A DNA stretch of 32,045 nt from Paracoccaceae bacterium (GTDB taxonomy: Bacteria; Pseudomonadota; Alphaproteobacteria; Rhodobacterales; Rhodobacteraceae): positions 1 through 32,045 of the forward strand of contig RFUP01000002.1 of the NCBI GenBank assembly GCA_009922885.1, in the 5' to 3' direction. The notes under the pieces are model-generated. The model was not told where the DNA came from. It ran no database searches and was given only the letters and a program-made list of their open reading frames with translations. The position numbers and the translations under genes are program-made. Shown here one piece after another: positions 5,771-22,571 of this stretch; the first letter of the stretch is position 1, and every line of letters starts with the position of its first letter.

Positions 5771-6124
5771 ATGCGGTTTGTCTGGGCTCTTGCGGGGTTG
5801 GTGAGCCTGGCTTTGGCCCTGATCGGTATCGTACTGCCGCTTTTGCCGACAGTTCCCTTCCTACTGCTGGCCGCCTTTTGCTTCGCGCGATCGTCTGAAC
5901 GGCTGCACTCTTGGCTCATCAATCACAAAACACTCGGCCCGCCGATCCTTGAGTGGCAAGAACGCGGTTCAATTAACCGACGCGGAAAGCGTTTGGCAAC
6001 GCTTTCCATCGCGGTTGTGTTCTGCATTTCGCTGGCGCTTGGCCTGCGCCCGATGATTTTGGGCATTCAAGCGCTTTGCCTTGCTGGCGTGCTGACGTTT
6101 ATCTGGACGCGACCTAGCGCGTAG
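5771..6124 (+). CDS. DUF454/YbaN-family inner-membrane protein
   Basis: A small membrane protein (117 residues) of the DUF454 (YbaN) family, whose function is not known. The signature GIVLPLLPTVPFLLLAAFCFARSS spans about residues 18-42. There are about three to four hydrophobic segments: two near the N-terminus (7-26 and 28-42) and two near the C-terminus (about 75-90 and 96-112), with a central soluble stretch SERLHSWLINHKTLGPPILEWQERGSI. I chose the ATG at 5771 over the TTG at 5768 because GAGG lies 6 bases before it, overlapping the hemW stop region. The gene ends head-on into parB: the two stop codons overlap by 11 bases with no hairpin between. Family call firm, role unknown. Confidence 0.88.
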   Translation: MRFVWALAGLVSLALALIGIVLPLLPTVPFLLLAAFCFARSSERLHSWLINHKTLGPPILEWQERGSINRRGKRLATLSIAVVFCISLALGLRPMILGIQALCLAGVLTFIWTRPSA

Positions 6125-7022
6125 ACGAGAGAATACGGCACAACTCGTCGAGCTGATCGAGCGTCTCGTAGCGAATCACGATTTGACCCGCCTCTTGGCC
6201 GTTGTTGTGCAGAATCTCGACCGACATTTTCAGATTCGCCGCCAGATCTGCCTCCAATGCCCGTGTATCAGCATCTTTTTCAGCCTTCGGGCGGCTTTGC
6301 TTGGCACCACCCTCGGTGAAAATGTTCGATACAGGCTTTTTCGCGAGCTTCTCTGCTTCGCGAACGGAAAGCCCATCCTTGATAATCTTGCGAGCCGCCG
6401 TGATCGGGTCATCCATTGTGATCAAAGCGCGGGCGTGGCCGGCTGACAGCCTGCCTTCACGCACGTGCTCGACCACTTCTTCGGGCAAGGACAGAAGGCG
6501 CAGGAGGTTGGCGATATGGCTCCGGCTTTTGCCTAGGGCTTCGGCAAGACGCTCTTGGGTGTGGCCAAAGCGATCCATCAGCTGACGATACCCTGCGGCT
6601 TCTTCTATCGCATTCAGATCGGCGCGCTGAATGTTCTCAATGATAGCGATTTCAAGGACTTCCGTGTCGTCCAGCTCCCGAACGAGAACCGGAACGGTGT
6701 GAAGTTGGGCGATCTGCGAAGCGCGCCAGCGGCGTTCGCCGGCGACGATTTCATAATCTCCCGCGCGACCAGGACGAGGGCGGACGATTAGCGGCTGCAG
6801 GACGCCCTTTTCGCGGATCGAGGATGCAAGCTCCTGCAAGGCGTCGTCGTTGAACGTGCGCCGGGGCTGAGTTGGATTAGCGAAAATCTTCTCGACCGGA
6901 ACGAACATGTCAGGCCGACGCGCCGCCGAGGCCTCGATGGCCGGTGCAGCGGGGGCGACATCGGCCATTAATGCCGAAAGACCACGGCCAAGACCTCTGG
7001 ATTTATTCGTTTTATCGCTCAT
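6114..7022 (-). CDS. parB: Chromosome partitioning protein ParB
   Basis: ParB binds parS sites, slides onto neighbouring DNA as a CTP-dependent clamp, and loads SMC and guides ParA to segregate new origins. The 302-residue protein has the N-terminal ParA-interacting peptide (KSRGLGRGLSALM), the CTP-binding domain with PTQPRRTF, EKGVLQPLIVRP, IVAGERRWRA and ENIQRADLNAIEEA, then the helix-turn-helix parS reader (GHTQERLAEALGKSRSHIANLLRLL, about residues 150-175) and a C-terminal dimerisation domain. Its SD is GGAG 6 bases before the ATG; only one base separates it from the parA stop. Cognate parS sites lie in rsmG and at the mnmG start, and a near match lies between hslU and hslV. It is the last gene of the rho operon and converges on the ybaN-like gene. 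Confidence 0.97.
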   Translation of the reverse strand: MSDKTNKSRGLGRGLSALMADVAPAAPAIEASAARRPDMFVPVEKIFANPTQPRRTFNDDALQELASSIREKGVLQPLIVRPRPGRAGDYEIVAGERRWRASQIAQLHTVPVLVRELDDTEVLEIAIIENIQRADLNAIEEAAGYRQLMDRFGHTQERLAEALGKSRSHIANLLRLLSLPEEVVEHVREGRLSAGHARALITMDDPITAARKIIKDGLSVREAEKLAKKPVSNIFTEGGAKQSRPKAEKDADTRALEADLAANLKMSVEILHNNGQEAGQIVIRYETLDQLDELCRILSSTR

Positions 7023-7023
7023 T

Positions 7024-7845
7024 TCACACTCCAGCTACTGCAACAAGCTCAGGATAGCGGCGCAGGACTTCCTTTGCCAACTCGACATAGGCTTGAGATC
7101 CTTTGGATTGCGGATCGTATTCCAGCACCGGCATGGCGAAGGAGGGCGCCTCGCTCAATCGGACATTTCGCGGGATGACGGTCTGGAACACGACATCGCC
7201 CAGATTGGCGCGGGCATCGGCCTCAACCTGTTGCGAAAGATTGTTCCGCGCATCATACATCGTGAGAACAACGCCTTCGATGCGAAGCTTCGGGTTGGCG
7301 GCCTGACGCACCTCACGGATCGTCATCATAAGCTGGCTCAGGCCTTCCAGCGCGAAAAACTCTGATTGCAGCGGCACAAGAACAGAATGCGCAGCAACCA
7401 TGGCATTTACGGTCAGCAAATTGAGCGACGGCGGGCAGTCGATAAGGATAAAATCGAAGACGAAATCGTCCATAGCGCGCTGGTGAAGCGCGTCGTGGAG
7501 CATGAAGCTGCGCTTCTCATTTGCGACAAGCTCCATGTCCGCCGAGGAAAGATCTACCGTGGCTGGGATGATGCAAAGGCCTTCCACGCGCGTACGCTGG
7601 ATGGCTTTATGAAGATCGACGTCTTCGAGGATGAGTTCGTAGGTGGTGAGTTCACGGTCATCGGGCTCAATTCCCAATCCCGTGGACGCGTTACCCTGAG
7701 GATCAAGATCAACAAGGAGAACCCGCATGCCCAAAGCAGTGAGGGCCGCGCCAAGGTTGATCGCAGTGGTGGTCTTGCCAACACCGCCCTTTTGGTTCGC
7801 GACGGCAATGATTCGCGTATGGCTTGTGCGCGTAGGGTCAGACAC
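7024..7845 (-). CDS. parA: Chromosome partitioning ATPase ParA
   Basis: ParA is a deviant-Walker ATPase that forms ATP-dependent dimers on the nucleoid; ParB-parS complexes follow its gradient. Its 273 residues carry the deviant Walker A KGGVGKTTTAINLGAAL at about residues 19-35, LLVDLDPQGNASTGLG (Walker A'), IPATVDLSSADMEL and the Walker B region FILIDCPPSLNLLTVNA. The start is GTG, 8 bases inside rsmG, with SD AAGGGA 7 bases upstream embedded in the rsmG C-terminal codons. A short near-palindrome GGGAAATTCCC (7846-7856) covers this SD. It has no long N-terminal DNA-binding domain, so it is the chromosomal Soj-like type rather than a plasmid type. Confidence 0.97.
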   Translation of the reverse strand: MSDPTRTSHTRIIAVANQKGGVGKTTTAINLGAALTALGMRVLLVDLDPQGNASTGLGIEPDDRELTTYELILEDVDLHKAIQRTRVEGLCIIPATVDLSSADMELVANEKRSFMLHDALHQRAMDDFVFDFILIDCPPSLNLLTVNAMVAAHSVLVPLQSEFFALEGLSQLMMTIREVRQAANPKLRIEGVVLTMYDARNNLSQQVEADARANLGDVVFQTVIPRNVRLSEAPSFAMPVLEYDPQSKGSQAYVELAKEVLRRYPELVAVAGV

Positions 7846-8437
7846 GGGAAATTCCCTTAATTTTTAGAATTACTGCTTGATCGTCCGTGGCGCTTTTACA
7901 GGCTTCGTGGCTGAAGGACCATTGGCTTTGCATCTCGGCTAGCTCTTCTTGCCAGCGCGCACCCTTGGGGAAAAGACACATGCCGTCGGGCCCCAAATGC
8001 CTTAGTGCCAAGGGGGTGAGCGTTTTCAGGTCTGCCAGCGCGCGGGCTGATACGACGGAGGCGTTTTGTGGTTCCGCTTGCTCGATGCGCTCTGCGATGA
8101 CGGTTGCGGATGATCCCGTTTCTCGCAAGGCGGTTCGCAGAAACGTCGCCTTGCGTTTATCGCTCTCGATCAAAGTGACTTTTTTGACGGGATGAAAATC
8201 CGCAGCGCAAATCGCAATGACTATACCCGGAAACCCGCCGCCCGATCCCAAGTCCACCCAGTGATCCACAGGGGCATCTATCAGCCGAAGCAATTGAAGG
8301 CTGTCTTCGATATGGCGCGATCGCAAATCGGTCAGTGTTGACCTCGCGATCAAATTGATCGCAGGGTTCCACTTTTCGACGAGCTTGGCGAAGACTTCCA
8401 GCCGGTCGAATGTTTCACGTGAAACATCCGCCCACAT
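7838..8437 (-). CDS. rsmG: 16S rRNA (guanine-527-N7)-methyltransferase RsmG
   Basis: RsmG (GidB) methylates G527 of 16S rRNA using SAM; loss gives low-level streptomycin resistance in several bacteria. Visible motifs: the N-terminal VSRETFDRLEVFAKLVEKWNPAINL, the SAM-binding WVDLGSGGGFPGIVIAI, LIESDKRKATFLRTALRETG and VVSARALADLKTL. I start it at the ATG at 8437, which overlaps the mnmG stop as TGATG; the track's first codon is a GTG one codon earlier. The N-terminal residues VSRET are encoded by a perfect parS palindrome (8411-8426), so this stretch serves both protein and chromosome segregation. Length about 199 residues, normal for the family. Confidence 0.96.
   Translation of the reverse strand: MWADVSRETFDRLEVFAKLVEKWNPAINLIARSTLTDLRSRHIEDSLQLLRLIDAPVDHWVDLGSGGGFPGIVIAICAADFHPVKKVTLIESDKRKATFLRTALRETGSSATVIAERIEQAEPQNASVVSARALADLKTLTPLALRHLGPDGMCLFPKGARWQEELAEMQSQWSFSHEACKSATDDQAVILKIKGISRV
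8411..8426. other. parS centromere site 1 (inside rsmG)
   Basis: TGTTTCACGTGAAACA is a perfect 16-bp palindrome identical to the classical bacterial parS consensus; the symmetry extends to 18 bp (8410-8427). It lies within the rsmG coding region, about 4.9 kb from the proposed origin and close to parA/parB. ParB binding is expected from the consensus but not shown here. Confidence 0.93.
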
Positions 8438-10302
8438 CACGCCGATTTTTCCCGTTGGGCTTGCTTCATCTTGGCCAGAAGAAGCGTCAACGCGGCAGGC
8501 GTCATACCATCCACGCGCGAAGCTTGGGATAGGTTCGCTGGTTGCGCGCGGCCAAGCTTGAGCTTTAGCTCGTTGGAAAGGCCGTCGATCCGTGAATAAT
8601 CGAAATTCGCGGGTATCTCCTGGTTTTCATCCTTCCGCAACAGCTCTACATCCCGCTTTTGACGGTCGATGTAGTTGGAATAGAGGGCGTCTTTTGCAAG
8701 CTGGGACTGGATCTCGGGCTCGATTGAGGACAGTTCGGGATCAAGCTGTTCCAGATGTTTGAACTCGATCTCTGGCAGCGACAAAAGCTGGAAGGGCGTG
8801 CGACGAGGGCCATCCGGGTTGATCGCCATACCGAGGGTATTCACCTCCCGCGGTGTAAACGTTTGGCGCTCAAGCATTTCTCTGCCGGCCGAGAGCTTCT
8901 CCATCTTGCTCTCGAACGCAACTTTTCGGTCTTCACTCACACATCCGATTTGAAGCGCAAGCGGCGTGAGCCGCTGATCCGCGTTGTCTGCACGAAGGGA
9001 AAGTCGGAATTCAGCGCGTGAGGTGAACATCCTGTAGGGTTCAGCCACGCCGCGCGTCGTCAGATCATCAACCATGACCCCGATGTAGCTATCGGTTCGC
9101 GAGAAAATGACAGGTTCTTTCGCCATCGCTTCAGAGGCTGCATTCAAACCCGCCACAAGGCCTTGCGCGGCCGCTTCTTCATAACCGGTCGTTCCGTTGA
9201 TCTGGCCAGCGAGGAAGAGGCCAGGGACCGATTTAACGCCGAGGCGAAGATCAAGTGCGCGCGGATCGACATAGTCATACTCGATCGCATAACCGGGCTG
9301 AAGAATTGTCGCATTCTCCAAACCGACCATGGAGTGCACATAGTCGTGTTGGACATCTTCTGGAAGCGAGGTGGAAATACCGTTCGGATATACGGTGTGA
9401 TCGTCCAGGCCTTCCGGCTCAAGGAACACCTGGTGACTATCTTTATCAGAGAACCGAACGATCTTGTCTTCAATGGACGGGCAGTAACGCGGACCAACGC
9501 CTTCAATGTGACCCCCATACATCGCGGAACGGGACAGGTTTTCGCGAATAATATCGTGGGTTCTAGAGTTGGTGTGCGTGATGCCGCACGAGATTTGCCG
9601 GACAAATGGCGCTTTCGAGAGGAAAGAGAAGAGAACTGGCTCGTCATCCGCTGGCTGGGAGTCGAGCTTGCTCCAGTCGATTGTCCGACCATCAAGGCGC
9701 GGTGGCGTGCCCGTTTTCAGGCGACCGAGCGGAAGGCCGAACGCATCCATACGTTCCGCCAGCTTTACAGATGGTTTATCACCAATGCGCCCACCCGGCC
9801 GTTTCTTGTCACCGATATGGATAACACCTCTCAGAAAAGTGCCCGTCGTGAGCACAACCGCCGCGGCGCTAAGCTCCGAACCATCATCCAAAACGACGCC
9901 GGAAACGTGATCGCCCGTCATCAGGAGGTCGGTGCATTCCCCCTCAACGATCGTGAGATTTTGGCGTTGCTCCGTAATCGCGAGCATCGTTTCCCTGTAG
10001 ATCTTGCGATCGGATTGCGTGCGGGGGCCCTGCACGGCGGGACCTTTGCGGCGGTTCAATAGACGGAACTGGATACCGGAGCGGTCCGCGACATGGGCCA
10101 TGACCCCATCCATCGCGTCGACTTCGCGAACAAGGTGGCCTTTCCCAAGACCACCAATTGCAGGATTGCACGACATCACACCGATACCAGCGCGGGAAAG
10201 TGTGACCAGCGCGGTCGCCGCACCCATACGAGCAGCAGCATGAGCAGCCTCCGCGCCTGCGTGGCCACCACCAACAACAACGACATCGAAGCGATGTTTC
10301 AC
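8437..10302 (-). CDS. mnmG: tRNA U34 5-carboxymethylaminomethyl modification enzyme MnmG
   Basis: MnmG (GidA), with MnmE, installs the cmnm5 group on wobble U34 of certain tRNAs using FAD, glycine and a folate donor. Motifs: the FAD-binding [15 protein letters not shown] near the N-terminus, [63 protein letters not shown] and the C-terminal [17 protein letters not shown]. The track begins at a GTG at 10311, but that codon overlaps the SD (TAAGGAGTG); the next GTG, at 10302, lies 8 bases after AAGGAG and is the better start (621 residues, [10 protein letters not shown]). Relatives, as I recall, often begin MFHVKH, so the start is worth testing. Either way, the start codon region is the parS site. 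mnmE ends just upstream; rsmG follows with TGATG coupling. Confidence 0.95.
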
Positions 10303-10310
10303 GTGAAACA
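10295..10310. other. parS centromere site 2 (at the mnmG start)
   Basis: A second perfect TGTTTCACGTGAAACA, only about 2.9 kb from the proposed origin. It covers the mnmG start region: the central GTG is the start codon I favour, and the SD AAGGAG abuts the palindrome. The consensus match is exact; ParB occupancy is inferred. Confidence 0.93.
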
Positions 10311-13042: not shown

Positions 13043-13076
13043 CAATATTAATAATAAAAGAATAGAAAAAATGATG
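13043..13076. other. AT-rich block, possible DNA-unwinding element
   Basis: CAATATTAATAATAAAAG and the following AATAGAAAAAATGATGATGATG form one of the most AT-rich runs in the window, next to the DnaA-box cluster. Such runs are typically where DnaA opens the duplex. Which of the two AT blocks melts first cannot be told from sequence. Confidence 0.5.
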
Positions 13077-13098
13077 ATGATGTAGGAAGCGGAAAAGC

Positions 13099-13107
13099 TG
13101 GGGATAC
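13099..13107 (-). promoter_or_regulatory. DnaA-box-like sequence (7/9)
   Basis: GTATCCCCA on the - strand; 7 of 9 positions match TTATCCACA. Weak alone, but part of the cluster. Confidence 0.4.
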
Positions 13108-13123
13108 TTTATTTAAACAGGTT

Positions 13124-13132
13124 TTTTCCACA
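13124..13132 (+). promoter_or_regulatory. DnaA box (8/9)
   Basis: TTTTCCACA, one mismatch from TTATCCACA, within the AT-rich region. Confidence 0.6.
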
Positions 13133-13165
13133 TGAAGATTGTTGGCGGGACCAGTATCATGAATC

Positions 13166-13174
13166 TGTGGATAT
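13166..13174 (-). promoter_or_regulatory. DnaA box (8/9) adjoining a GANTC site
   Basis: ATATCCACA on the - strand (TGTGGATAT on +), one mismatch from consensus. A GAATC (GANTC) site at 13161-13165 abuts it directly, so CcrM-type methylation could affect DnaA binding here. Confidence 0.65.
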
Positions 13175-13193
13175 TCAAAAATATTATAGCAAT

Positions 13194-13216
13194 TTCATAT
13201 ACTTAAAATATATGAA
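13194..13216. repeat. AT-only-type inverted repeat inside the origin
   Basis: TTCATATA and TATATGAA form an 8-bp perfect inverted repeat with a 7-base spacer (CTTAAAA). It lies between two DnaA boxes. It could be a protein-binding site or a melting element; no T-run or GC stem suggests a terminator. Confidence 0.55.
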
Positions 13217-13217
13217 G

Positions 13218-13226
13218 ACTGGATAA
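13218..13226 (-). promoter_or_regulatory. DnaA-box-like sequence (7/9)
   Basis: TTATCCAGT on the - strand; the first seven bases match the consensus exactly and the last two differ. Confidence 0.45.
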
Positions 13227-13399
13227 ATACGGGAACACTTTGAGATAAAACATGGACTGTGGGGATTTCAGTTATCCTTCTCCACGCGGGATGGCATGAG
13301 CATGTTTCCGTGGGGCACGGACGCCATAGCTTGCCGTTGCACAAATCTGGCGAATTCCGCAAAAGAATGCCCAGGCAAACCCGATAGATTTACCAAGAG

Positions 13400-13408
13400 T
13401 TATCCACA
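13400..13408 (+). promoter_or_regulatory. Perfect DnaA box overlapping the maf start codon
   Basis: TTATCCACA, 9 of 9. It sits between the maf SD-like AAGAG (13395-13399) and the ATG, sharing the A of the ATG. It is the strongest DnaA site in the window and marks the right edge of the origin. Confidence 0.8.
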
Positions 13409-20678: not shown

Positions 20679-21980
20679 CTAGAGGACGTAACGGCTCACG
20701 TCCACGGAGCGCGAAAGTTCGCCCAGATTTGCTTCAACGAAGGCTGCATCAACAACGACAGAGTGCCCGGAGCGATCGGGTGCAGTGAAGGAAAGTTCTT
20801 CGAAGACGCGCTCCATCACCGTGTAGAGGCGGCGCGCGCCGATGTTTTCGACGCTCTGGTTCACCTCGGCGGCGATGCGGGCCAAAGCGGCGATGCCATC
20901 TTCGGTGAAGCTGACGGTGACCTCTTCGGTACCCATCAGGGCAGTGTATTGGCGGGTGAGGGCGTTATCGGTTTCGGTGAGGATGCGTACGAAATCGGCC
21001 TCGGTAAGTGGCTTCAACTCCACGCGGATCGGCAGGCGGCCTTGGAGTTCGGGCAGGAGGTCCGATGGTTTGGCGATGTGGAAGGCGCCCGACGCGATGA
21101 AGAGGATGTGGTCGGTTTTCACGGGGCCGTATTTGGTGGAAACGGTGGTGCCTTCGATCAGGGGAAGCAGGTCACGCTGCACGCCTTCACGGGATACATC
21201 GGCACCGCGGGTTTCGGCGCGGGCGCAAACCTTGTCGATCTCGTCAATGAACACGATGCCGTTTTCCTGCACGGCTTCCAATGCAGCGGCTTTGACGGTT
21301 TCGTCGTCGAGAAGCTTGTCTGCCTCTTCGGCGATCAGCACCTCGTAGCTTTCCGAGACGCTGAGTTTGCGACGGGTCTTGCGGCCACCAAAGGCTTTGA
21401 AGAGGTCTTGCAAGCCCTGCATCTGCATTTCCATGCCTTGCCCGGGCATCCCCATGACAGGCATTCCGCCAGAAGGATCGTTCAGCTCCAGATCGATGAT
21501 CTTGTCGTCCAACTCGCCAGCTTTCAGCTTTTTGCGGAACATTTCGCGGGTGGCTTCGCGCGCGTCGGAGCCAGCGATGGCTTCGATGACGCGATCTTCG
21601 GCGGCTTTCTGGGCGCGCGCTTTGACATCCTCGCGCATTTGTTCGCGAACCTGCACAACGGCGCTATCCATCAGATCGCGGATGATTTGCTCAACATCGC
21701 GGCCAACGTAGCCGACTTCGGTGAATTTGGTGGCCTCAACCTTGAGGAAGGGCGCTTTGGCGAGTTTGGCCAAACGGCGGCTGATTTCGGTTTTGCCAAC
21801 GCCAGTTGGACCGATCATCAGGATGTTCTTGGGATAAACCTCGTCGCGCAGGTCGCCGGGCAATTGTTTGCGGCGCCAGCGGTTGCGAAGGGCAACGGCA
21901 ACGGCACGTTTGGCGTCTTTCTGGCCGATGATAAAGCGGTCGAGTTCGGAAACGATTTCGCGGGGGGTGAGGTCGGTCAT
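20679..21980 (-). CDS. hslU: ATP-dependent protease ATPase subunit HslU
   Basis: HslU (ClpY) is the AAA+ unfoldase that feeds substrates into the HslV peptidase. The 433-residue protein shows [34 protein letters not shown], Walker [20 protein letters not shown] at about residue 55, the pore-loop motif VGYVGRD, a long I-domain (about 110-230), Walker [15 protein letters not shown], the sensor region [29 protein letters not shown] and arginine fingers in [13 protein letters not shown]. The C-terminus RYVL fits the tail that inserts into HslV pockets. It lies downstream of hslV, 33 bases apart, with a parS-like palindrome between. SD AAGG 6 bases upstream. Confidence 0.97.
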
Positions 21981-21992
21981 GCGAGGCCTTTT

Positions 21993-22008
21993 TGCTTCAC
22001 GTGAAACA
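21993..22008. other. parS-like site 3 (hslV-hslU gap)
   Basis: TGCTTCACGTGAAACA matches the parS consensus TGTTTCACGTGAAACA at 15 of 16 positions; only position 3 differs. It lies in the 33-base gap between hslV and hslU, about 8.7 kb on the other side of the proposed origin from sites 1 and 2. Being in non-coding DNA, it is not explained by conserved protein sequence. ParB binding is inferred. Confidence 0.7.
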
Positions 22009-22013
22009 GCGGA

Positions 22014-22571
22014 TCAGCCGCTGATCTTTTCCACGGTGAGATTGCCATTGGTGTAAACGCAGATGTCTGCGGCGATGGACATGGATTTTCTCGCCACTTC
22101 TTCGGCACTTAGGGGGCTATCCATCAGGGCGCGGGCGGCTGCGAGGGCGTAGTTTCCACCCGAACCGATAGCCGCGACGTTATGCTCGGGTTCCAGCACA
22201 TCGCCTGCGCCAGTGATGACGAAAAGCTCTTTGCCGTCCGTCACGATGAGCATCGCTTCGAGCTTTTGCAGGTATTTGTCCGTGCGCCAGTCTTTCGCCA
22301 ACTCAACAGAGGCGCGGGCGAGTTGGCCGGGGGTGGCTTCGAGCTTTTTCTCCAGCCTTTCCAGAAGGGTAAAGGCATCTGCGGTGGAGCCTGCAAAGCC
22401 CGCAACCACATCATAACCGCCGGGTGAAAGGCGGCGCACTTTGCGGGCGGTGCCTTTGATGACCGTTTGGCCGAGGCTTACCTGCCCATCGCCAGCAACG
22501 ACAACCTCGCCACCTTTACGCACACCGATAATGGTGGTTCCGTGCCATCCGGGAAACTTGTCTTCGGCCAT
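22014..22571 (-). CDS. hslV: ATP-dependent protease peptidase subunit HslV
   Basis: HslV (ClpQ) is a proteasome-beta-like threonine peptidase forming a double hexamer capped by HslU. The track ORF runs further up, but GGAGG 5 bases before the ATG at 22571 sets the start, giving 185 residues. The catalytic threonine should be the first T of [11 protein letters not shown], after an 11-residue leader [11 protein letters not shown] that must be cut off to free it. E. coli HslV has only the methionine there, so this is the longer, propeptide form seen in many alphaproteobacteria. Other motifs: [52 protein letters not shown]. First gene of hslVU, with a heat-shock-like promoter upstream. Confidence 0.96.

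Follow-up and report, generated by a model that had tools for sequence, protein, structure and literature searches.

A putative accessory parS site between hslV and hslU, across oriC from the core parS pair of a Rhodobacteraceae genome

Organization of the origin region

The window analyzed here, a stretch of 32,045 bp from a member of the Rhodobacteraceae, carries hemW, parB, parA, rsmG, mnmG, mnmE, and rho in this order, followed by a gap and by maf, aroE, coaE, dnaQ, secB, a gene encoding a Tim44-like protein, mltA, and then hslU and hslV (Table 1). The rho-maf gap is likely to be oriC because it combines DnaA boxes and an AT-rich dip with a Caulobacter-like gene order. A similar order flanks the Caulobacter origin, and Caulobacter crescentus and the window share the same ParB class and a similar origin neighborhood. 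The GC skew showed no clean sign change near 13.2 kb and thus provides no proof of the oriC position.

Three parS-like sites were found in this region. Sites 1 and 2 constitute the standard pair of the family, situated at the 5' ends of rsmG and mnmG, about 1.9 kb apart, and lie about 4.8 kb and 2.9 kb, respectively, from the rho-maf gap. Site 3 is located on the opposite side of this gap, at a distance of about 8.8 kb from it and 11.7 kb from site 2. Compared to the perfect palindrome TGTTTCACGTGAAACA, site 3 carries a single T-to-C change at base 3 of the plus strand (T3C), which leaves the whole GTGAAACA arm unchanged. The site is noncoding and takes up 16 of the 33 bp between hslV and hslU, and the Shine-Dalgarno-like AAAAGG of hslU adjoins it but lies outside its 16 bases. 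The initial annotation had described site 3 as a 15/16 parS-like match in a 33-base gap without coding constraint, which, together with sites 1 and 2, would bracket oriC at distances of about 5, 3, and 9 kb. Sequence and coordinates of the match are exact, the extent of the gap follows from the start of hslU and the end of hslV, and the bracketing holds provided that the rho-maf gap is oriC.

Table 1. Features of the origin region, with positions given in window coordinates
Feature	Position	Strand	Remarks
parB	6114..7022	-	ParB_N, HTH_ParB, and ParB_C domains; parS-contacting residues as in Caulobacter ParB
parA	7024..7845	-	ParA/Soj-type ATPase
core parS site 1	8411..8426		16/16; 5' end of rsmG; position conserved in the family
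core parS site 2	10295..10310		16/16; start of mnmG; position conserved in the family
probable oriC	13046..13407		AT-rich rho-maf gap; DnaA-box-like 9-mers at 13124, 13166, and 13400
hslU	20679..21980	-	start at 21980
hslV-hslU intergenic gap	21981..22013		33 bp; contains site 3 and the hslU Shine-Dalgarno sequence
parS-like site 3	21993..22008		TGCTTCACGTGAAACA; 15/16; one full arm and the CACGTG core unaltered; in the hslV-hslU gap
hslV	22014..22571	-	end at 22014

In an alignment with Caulobacter ParB (6t1f), the ParB encoded in the window keeps Q162, G170, K171, S172, R173, N178, G201, and R204, the same residue set that comprises the parS contacts and the determinants of parS versus NBS recognition (PMC7383237). 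A strong pair of SMC_N matches on contig C19, among others in the genome, is consistent with the presence of an SMC protein.

Rarity, sequence tolerance, and conservation of site 3

Within the window, three matches with up to three mismatches to TGTTTCACGTGAAACA were detected versus 0.09 expected, and none of 100 shuffles of the window gave three matches. The genome searched comprises 3.17 Mb in 855 contigs and is about 95% complete. At no more than one mismatch, it contains exactly three matches, namely sites 1, 2, and 3, all within 14 kb, compared to expectations of 0.019 genome-wide and 0.0002 per window under a first-order Markov model built on the window. The best match outside the window, on contig C32, is the only one at two mismatches, and three further matches have three mismatches. 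A chance origin of site 3, with about 2e-4 sites expected per window, was rejected.

Binding of Hyphomonas neptunium ParB to TGCCTCACGTGAAACA, in which T3C and T4C are combined, is abolished (PMC6650430). We searched 397 genomes of the family for each single change. The exact 16-mer TGCTTCACGTGAAACA, carrying T3C, occurred three times in these genomes, once each in the window, G209, and G407, in all cases beside oriC. The T4C variant TGTCTCACGTGAAACA and a reversed control of the T3C pattern each had no occurrence in the 397 genomes. In G209, which belongs to another genus, the T3C 16-mer occupies the syntenic core position within rsmG, with a perfect site 1.9 kb away. The copy in G407 lies in coaE, beyond oriC and separated from the core pair by 5.2 kb. 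This placement argues that the T3C change would be tolerated. Since the T3C 16-mer was found only beside origins, and once at a core parS position, T4C is suggested to be the more damaging half of the Hyphomonas double change.

Site 3 is unchanged (16/16) in the congener G002, which shares 90% nucleotide identity with the window over 26 kb. G003 has TGCTTCACGTGGAACA at the same place, 15/16 identical to site 3 of the window, and in G001, hslV and hslU are separated by about 690 bp of unrelated sequence that contains no site 3. In the comparison of the window with G003, 15 of the 16 bases of site 3 are identical versus 10 of the 17 bases in the remaining gap (Fisher test, p=0.024), and third codon positions show 54% identity in hslU and 57% in hslV. 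At a background of 55 to 65%, the binomial probability of at least 15/16 identity is 0.001 to 0.01. Based on these 16 bases, the G003 comparison provides moderate evidence that site 3 may be under selection. The change in G003 puts a C at base 5 of one arm, and a C at base 5 also occurs in the perfect parS2/3 palindrome of Pseudomonas aeruginosa (PMC4368675).

Outside the genus, site 3 was found in none of the hslV-hslU gaps of the family genomes examined, and 80 named Rhodobacteraceae hslV loci had no site with up to two mismatches between hslV and hslU. Family-wide conservation of site 3 was thus apparent in neither of these sets. The site is absent from G001 and from the other gaps, so the family does not need it. 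Judged by the genomes compared, site 3 is lineage specific and arose recently in this lineage.

Candidate role as an accessory parS and rival explanations

Site 3 shares its length, palindromic structure, CACGTG core, proximity to oriC, and a linked ParB with parS-specific residues with the universal chromosomal parS of ParABS systems (TGTTTCACGTGAAACA). However, it has the base-3 mismatch, stands alone 11.7 kb from the core pair, and lies across oriC at a position not common to the family. The parS cluster of C. crescentus (PMC5815017) is similar in comprising several sites of graded affinity and in the conserved GTGAAA half, but its strong sites lie within 5 kb on the left arm, whereas the window has one site on the opposite arm. 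Like site 3, parS1 and parS4 of P. aeruginosa (PMC4368675) are oriC-proximal and have one mismatch in one arm and an intact core; their mismatch, however, affects the outermost base and their binding was measured, whereas site 3 is altered at base 3. For binding in P. aeruginosa, changes confined to one arm are less harmful than changes in both, and the integrity of the CACGTG core is important (PMC4368675).

It seems unlikely that site 3 is a decayed or chance near-match without appreciable ParB binding, present in three species by descent without selection. This explanation would fit the lack of site 3 in most of the family and the fact that T3C is half of the double change that abolished binding in Hyphomonas (PMC6650430), and the 16/16 identity in G002 is unremarkable on its own at 90% overall identity. 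However, the mere 2e-4 or so sites that chance would place in the window, the retention of 15/16 bases by G003 within an otherwise diverged gap, and the occupation of a core parS position by the same 16-mer in G209 speak against it.

The two remaining explanations relate the palindrome to the neighboring genes. It is very improbable that the palindrome acts as a regulatory element in the hslVU mRNA, for instance as a hairpin between hslV and hslU in which T3C would form a U-G wobble (UGUUUC-ACGU-GAAGCA): a six-pair hairpin with one U-G pair is possible and appears in the centroid fold, but the palindrome is unused in the minimum-energy structure, and the hairpin was rejected because folding was no better than that of shuffles (z=0.32 for the window species and 1.03 for G003). 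Moreover, the U5-to-C change in G003 breaks a stem pair without compensation, yet it matches a known parS variant, and the palindrome is absent from the other hslV-hslU gaps examined in the family. An operator for another regulator of hslU or hslVU that reads CACGTG-core palindromes would be suitably located just upstream of the hslU start. We nevertheless give very little credence to such an operator, considering that site 3 lies between two co-oriented, probably cotranscribed genes, that core sites 1 and 2 are the only other copies in the genome with up to one mismatch, and that the only other copies of the 16-mer detected in the family are situated beside oriC in rsmG and coaE and not at hslVU.

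We therefore favor, with a probability of about 75%, the explanation that site 3 is a genuine accessory parS, predicted to nucleate ParB on the other arm from the core pair. The parS identity already proposed in the initial annotation gains support from the uniqueness of the site in the genome, its apparently selective conservation in a diverged congener, the same 16-mer at the core position in G209, and a ParB with all residues predicted to read parS. The genome-wide search for 15/16 matches, advised there as a check, returned only the three sites and none scattered elsewhere, with about 5% of the genome missing. ParB would then be loaded on both arms of oriC.

Proteins of the ParB family nucleate at parS, load as CTP clamps, and slide along the DNA. 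For site 3, ParB binding and spreading as well as SMC loading and redundancy are inferred. A ParB dimer, supplied by the gene 15 kb away, would bind the palindrome, load as a CTP clamp, and slide into the flanking DNA. A second ParB patch would thereby form on the side of maf and hslVU, smaller than the main patch at core sites 1 and 2 on the side of parAB. In Caulobacter, ParB spreading from a single site extends over no more than about 2 kb (PMC5815017), compared to the 11.7 kb between sites 2 and 3, and the patch at site 3 would thus be separate from that at the core. Site 3 would probably supplement the core pair in origin segregation rather than replace it, and it may give SMC a second point of entry, located on the opposite arm. 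In P. aeruginosa, a single strong site close to oriC is enough (PMC4368675), and thus site 3 is most likely redundant and may be dispensable. In Caulobacter, the permissive zone for parS encompasses about 500 kb around the native cluster (PMC5815017), and a zone of this type would explain why accessory sites are tolerated here.

Putative accessory sites in the genus and the family

A tree of ten concatenated proteins from four species resolved the genus as (G001,(G003,(G000,G002))) with full support, G000 being the window species. G001 and G003 share a third site, TGTTTCACGTGACACA, inside hemW, which G000 and G002 lack. It is situated at C4:15376 in G001 and C125:33330 in G003, about 3.1 kb from core site 1, and the codon string at this place differs in the window species, which has MYEITQ instead of MFHVTQ. 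As a suggestion only, and as the simplest course of events, the hemW site might be ancestral, the hslVU site might have been gained before the split of G003, and the hemW site might have been lost in G000 and G002. It is doubtful whether a third parS is under selection and moving in this genus, with the hemW site replaced by the hslVU site in G000 and G002 and both present in G003, so that accessory ParB and SMC loading shifted from the parAB arm to the opposite arm.

Across the family, the first sample contained exactly two sites with up to one mismatch in 22 of 25 genomes, three in two genomes, and none in one genome. When this sample was pooled with a further 31 genomes, extra parS-like sites were present in 12 of 56, about one in five. 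Most of the mapped extra sites are on the parAB side of oriC: in parA (G018), rsmG (G126), mnmG (G106), and hemW (G069), between parB and hemW (G120), and beyond hemW (G121). G023 has a far-side site in coaE, CGTTTCACGTGAAACC, with the inner 14-mer intact. Since G407 and G023 both have far-side coaE sites, accessory sites on this side probably arose more than once.

Site 3 would thus be an ordinary accessory parS of recent origin, positioned across oriC from the core pair. It adds an example of accessory centromere sites being gained and lost over a short timescale in a family whose core pair is otherwise nearly invariant. According to a proposal by Tran et al., new parS sites are mainly tolerated in the vicinity of the native cluster (PMC5815017), and cases of this kind are needed for testing it. 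Site 3 likewise provides a natural setting in which to test whether ParB or SMC loading is altered by a parS located on the opposite arm.

Several further parS-like arrangements were observed in the family. G132 carries a 15/16 site, TGTTTCACGTGAACCA, at C5:261570, which lies beyond oriC and is separated from the core pair by 71 kb. Pairs of perfect parS sites exactly 134 bp apart were detected in G115 (C34:318670/318804), G126 (C1:120210/120344), where the doublet is located in rsmG, and G141 (C17:117509/117643); its presence in three genomes suggests that this doublet is recurrent or inherited. G101, without any perfect TGTTTCACGTGAAACA site, has four copies of TGTTCCACGTGAAACA (C1:147788 and C2:501864, 589943, and 958676) spread over hundreds of kilobases, a parS distribution unusual for the family. 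Sites with a C at base 7 or its mirror position, e.g., TGTTTCACGGGAAACA, which are midway between parS and NBS, the site of Noc, were found at G407 C1:1915214, L117:19730, G069 C21:108554, and G000 C32:2253, and those of G407 and G069 lie in the origin region.
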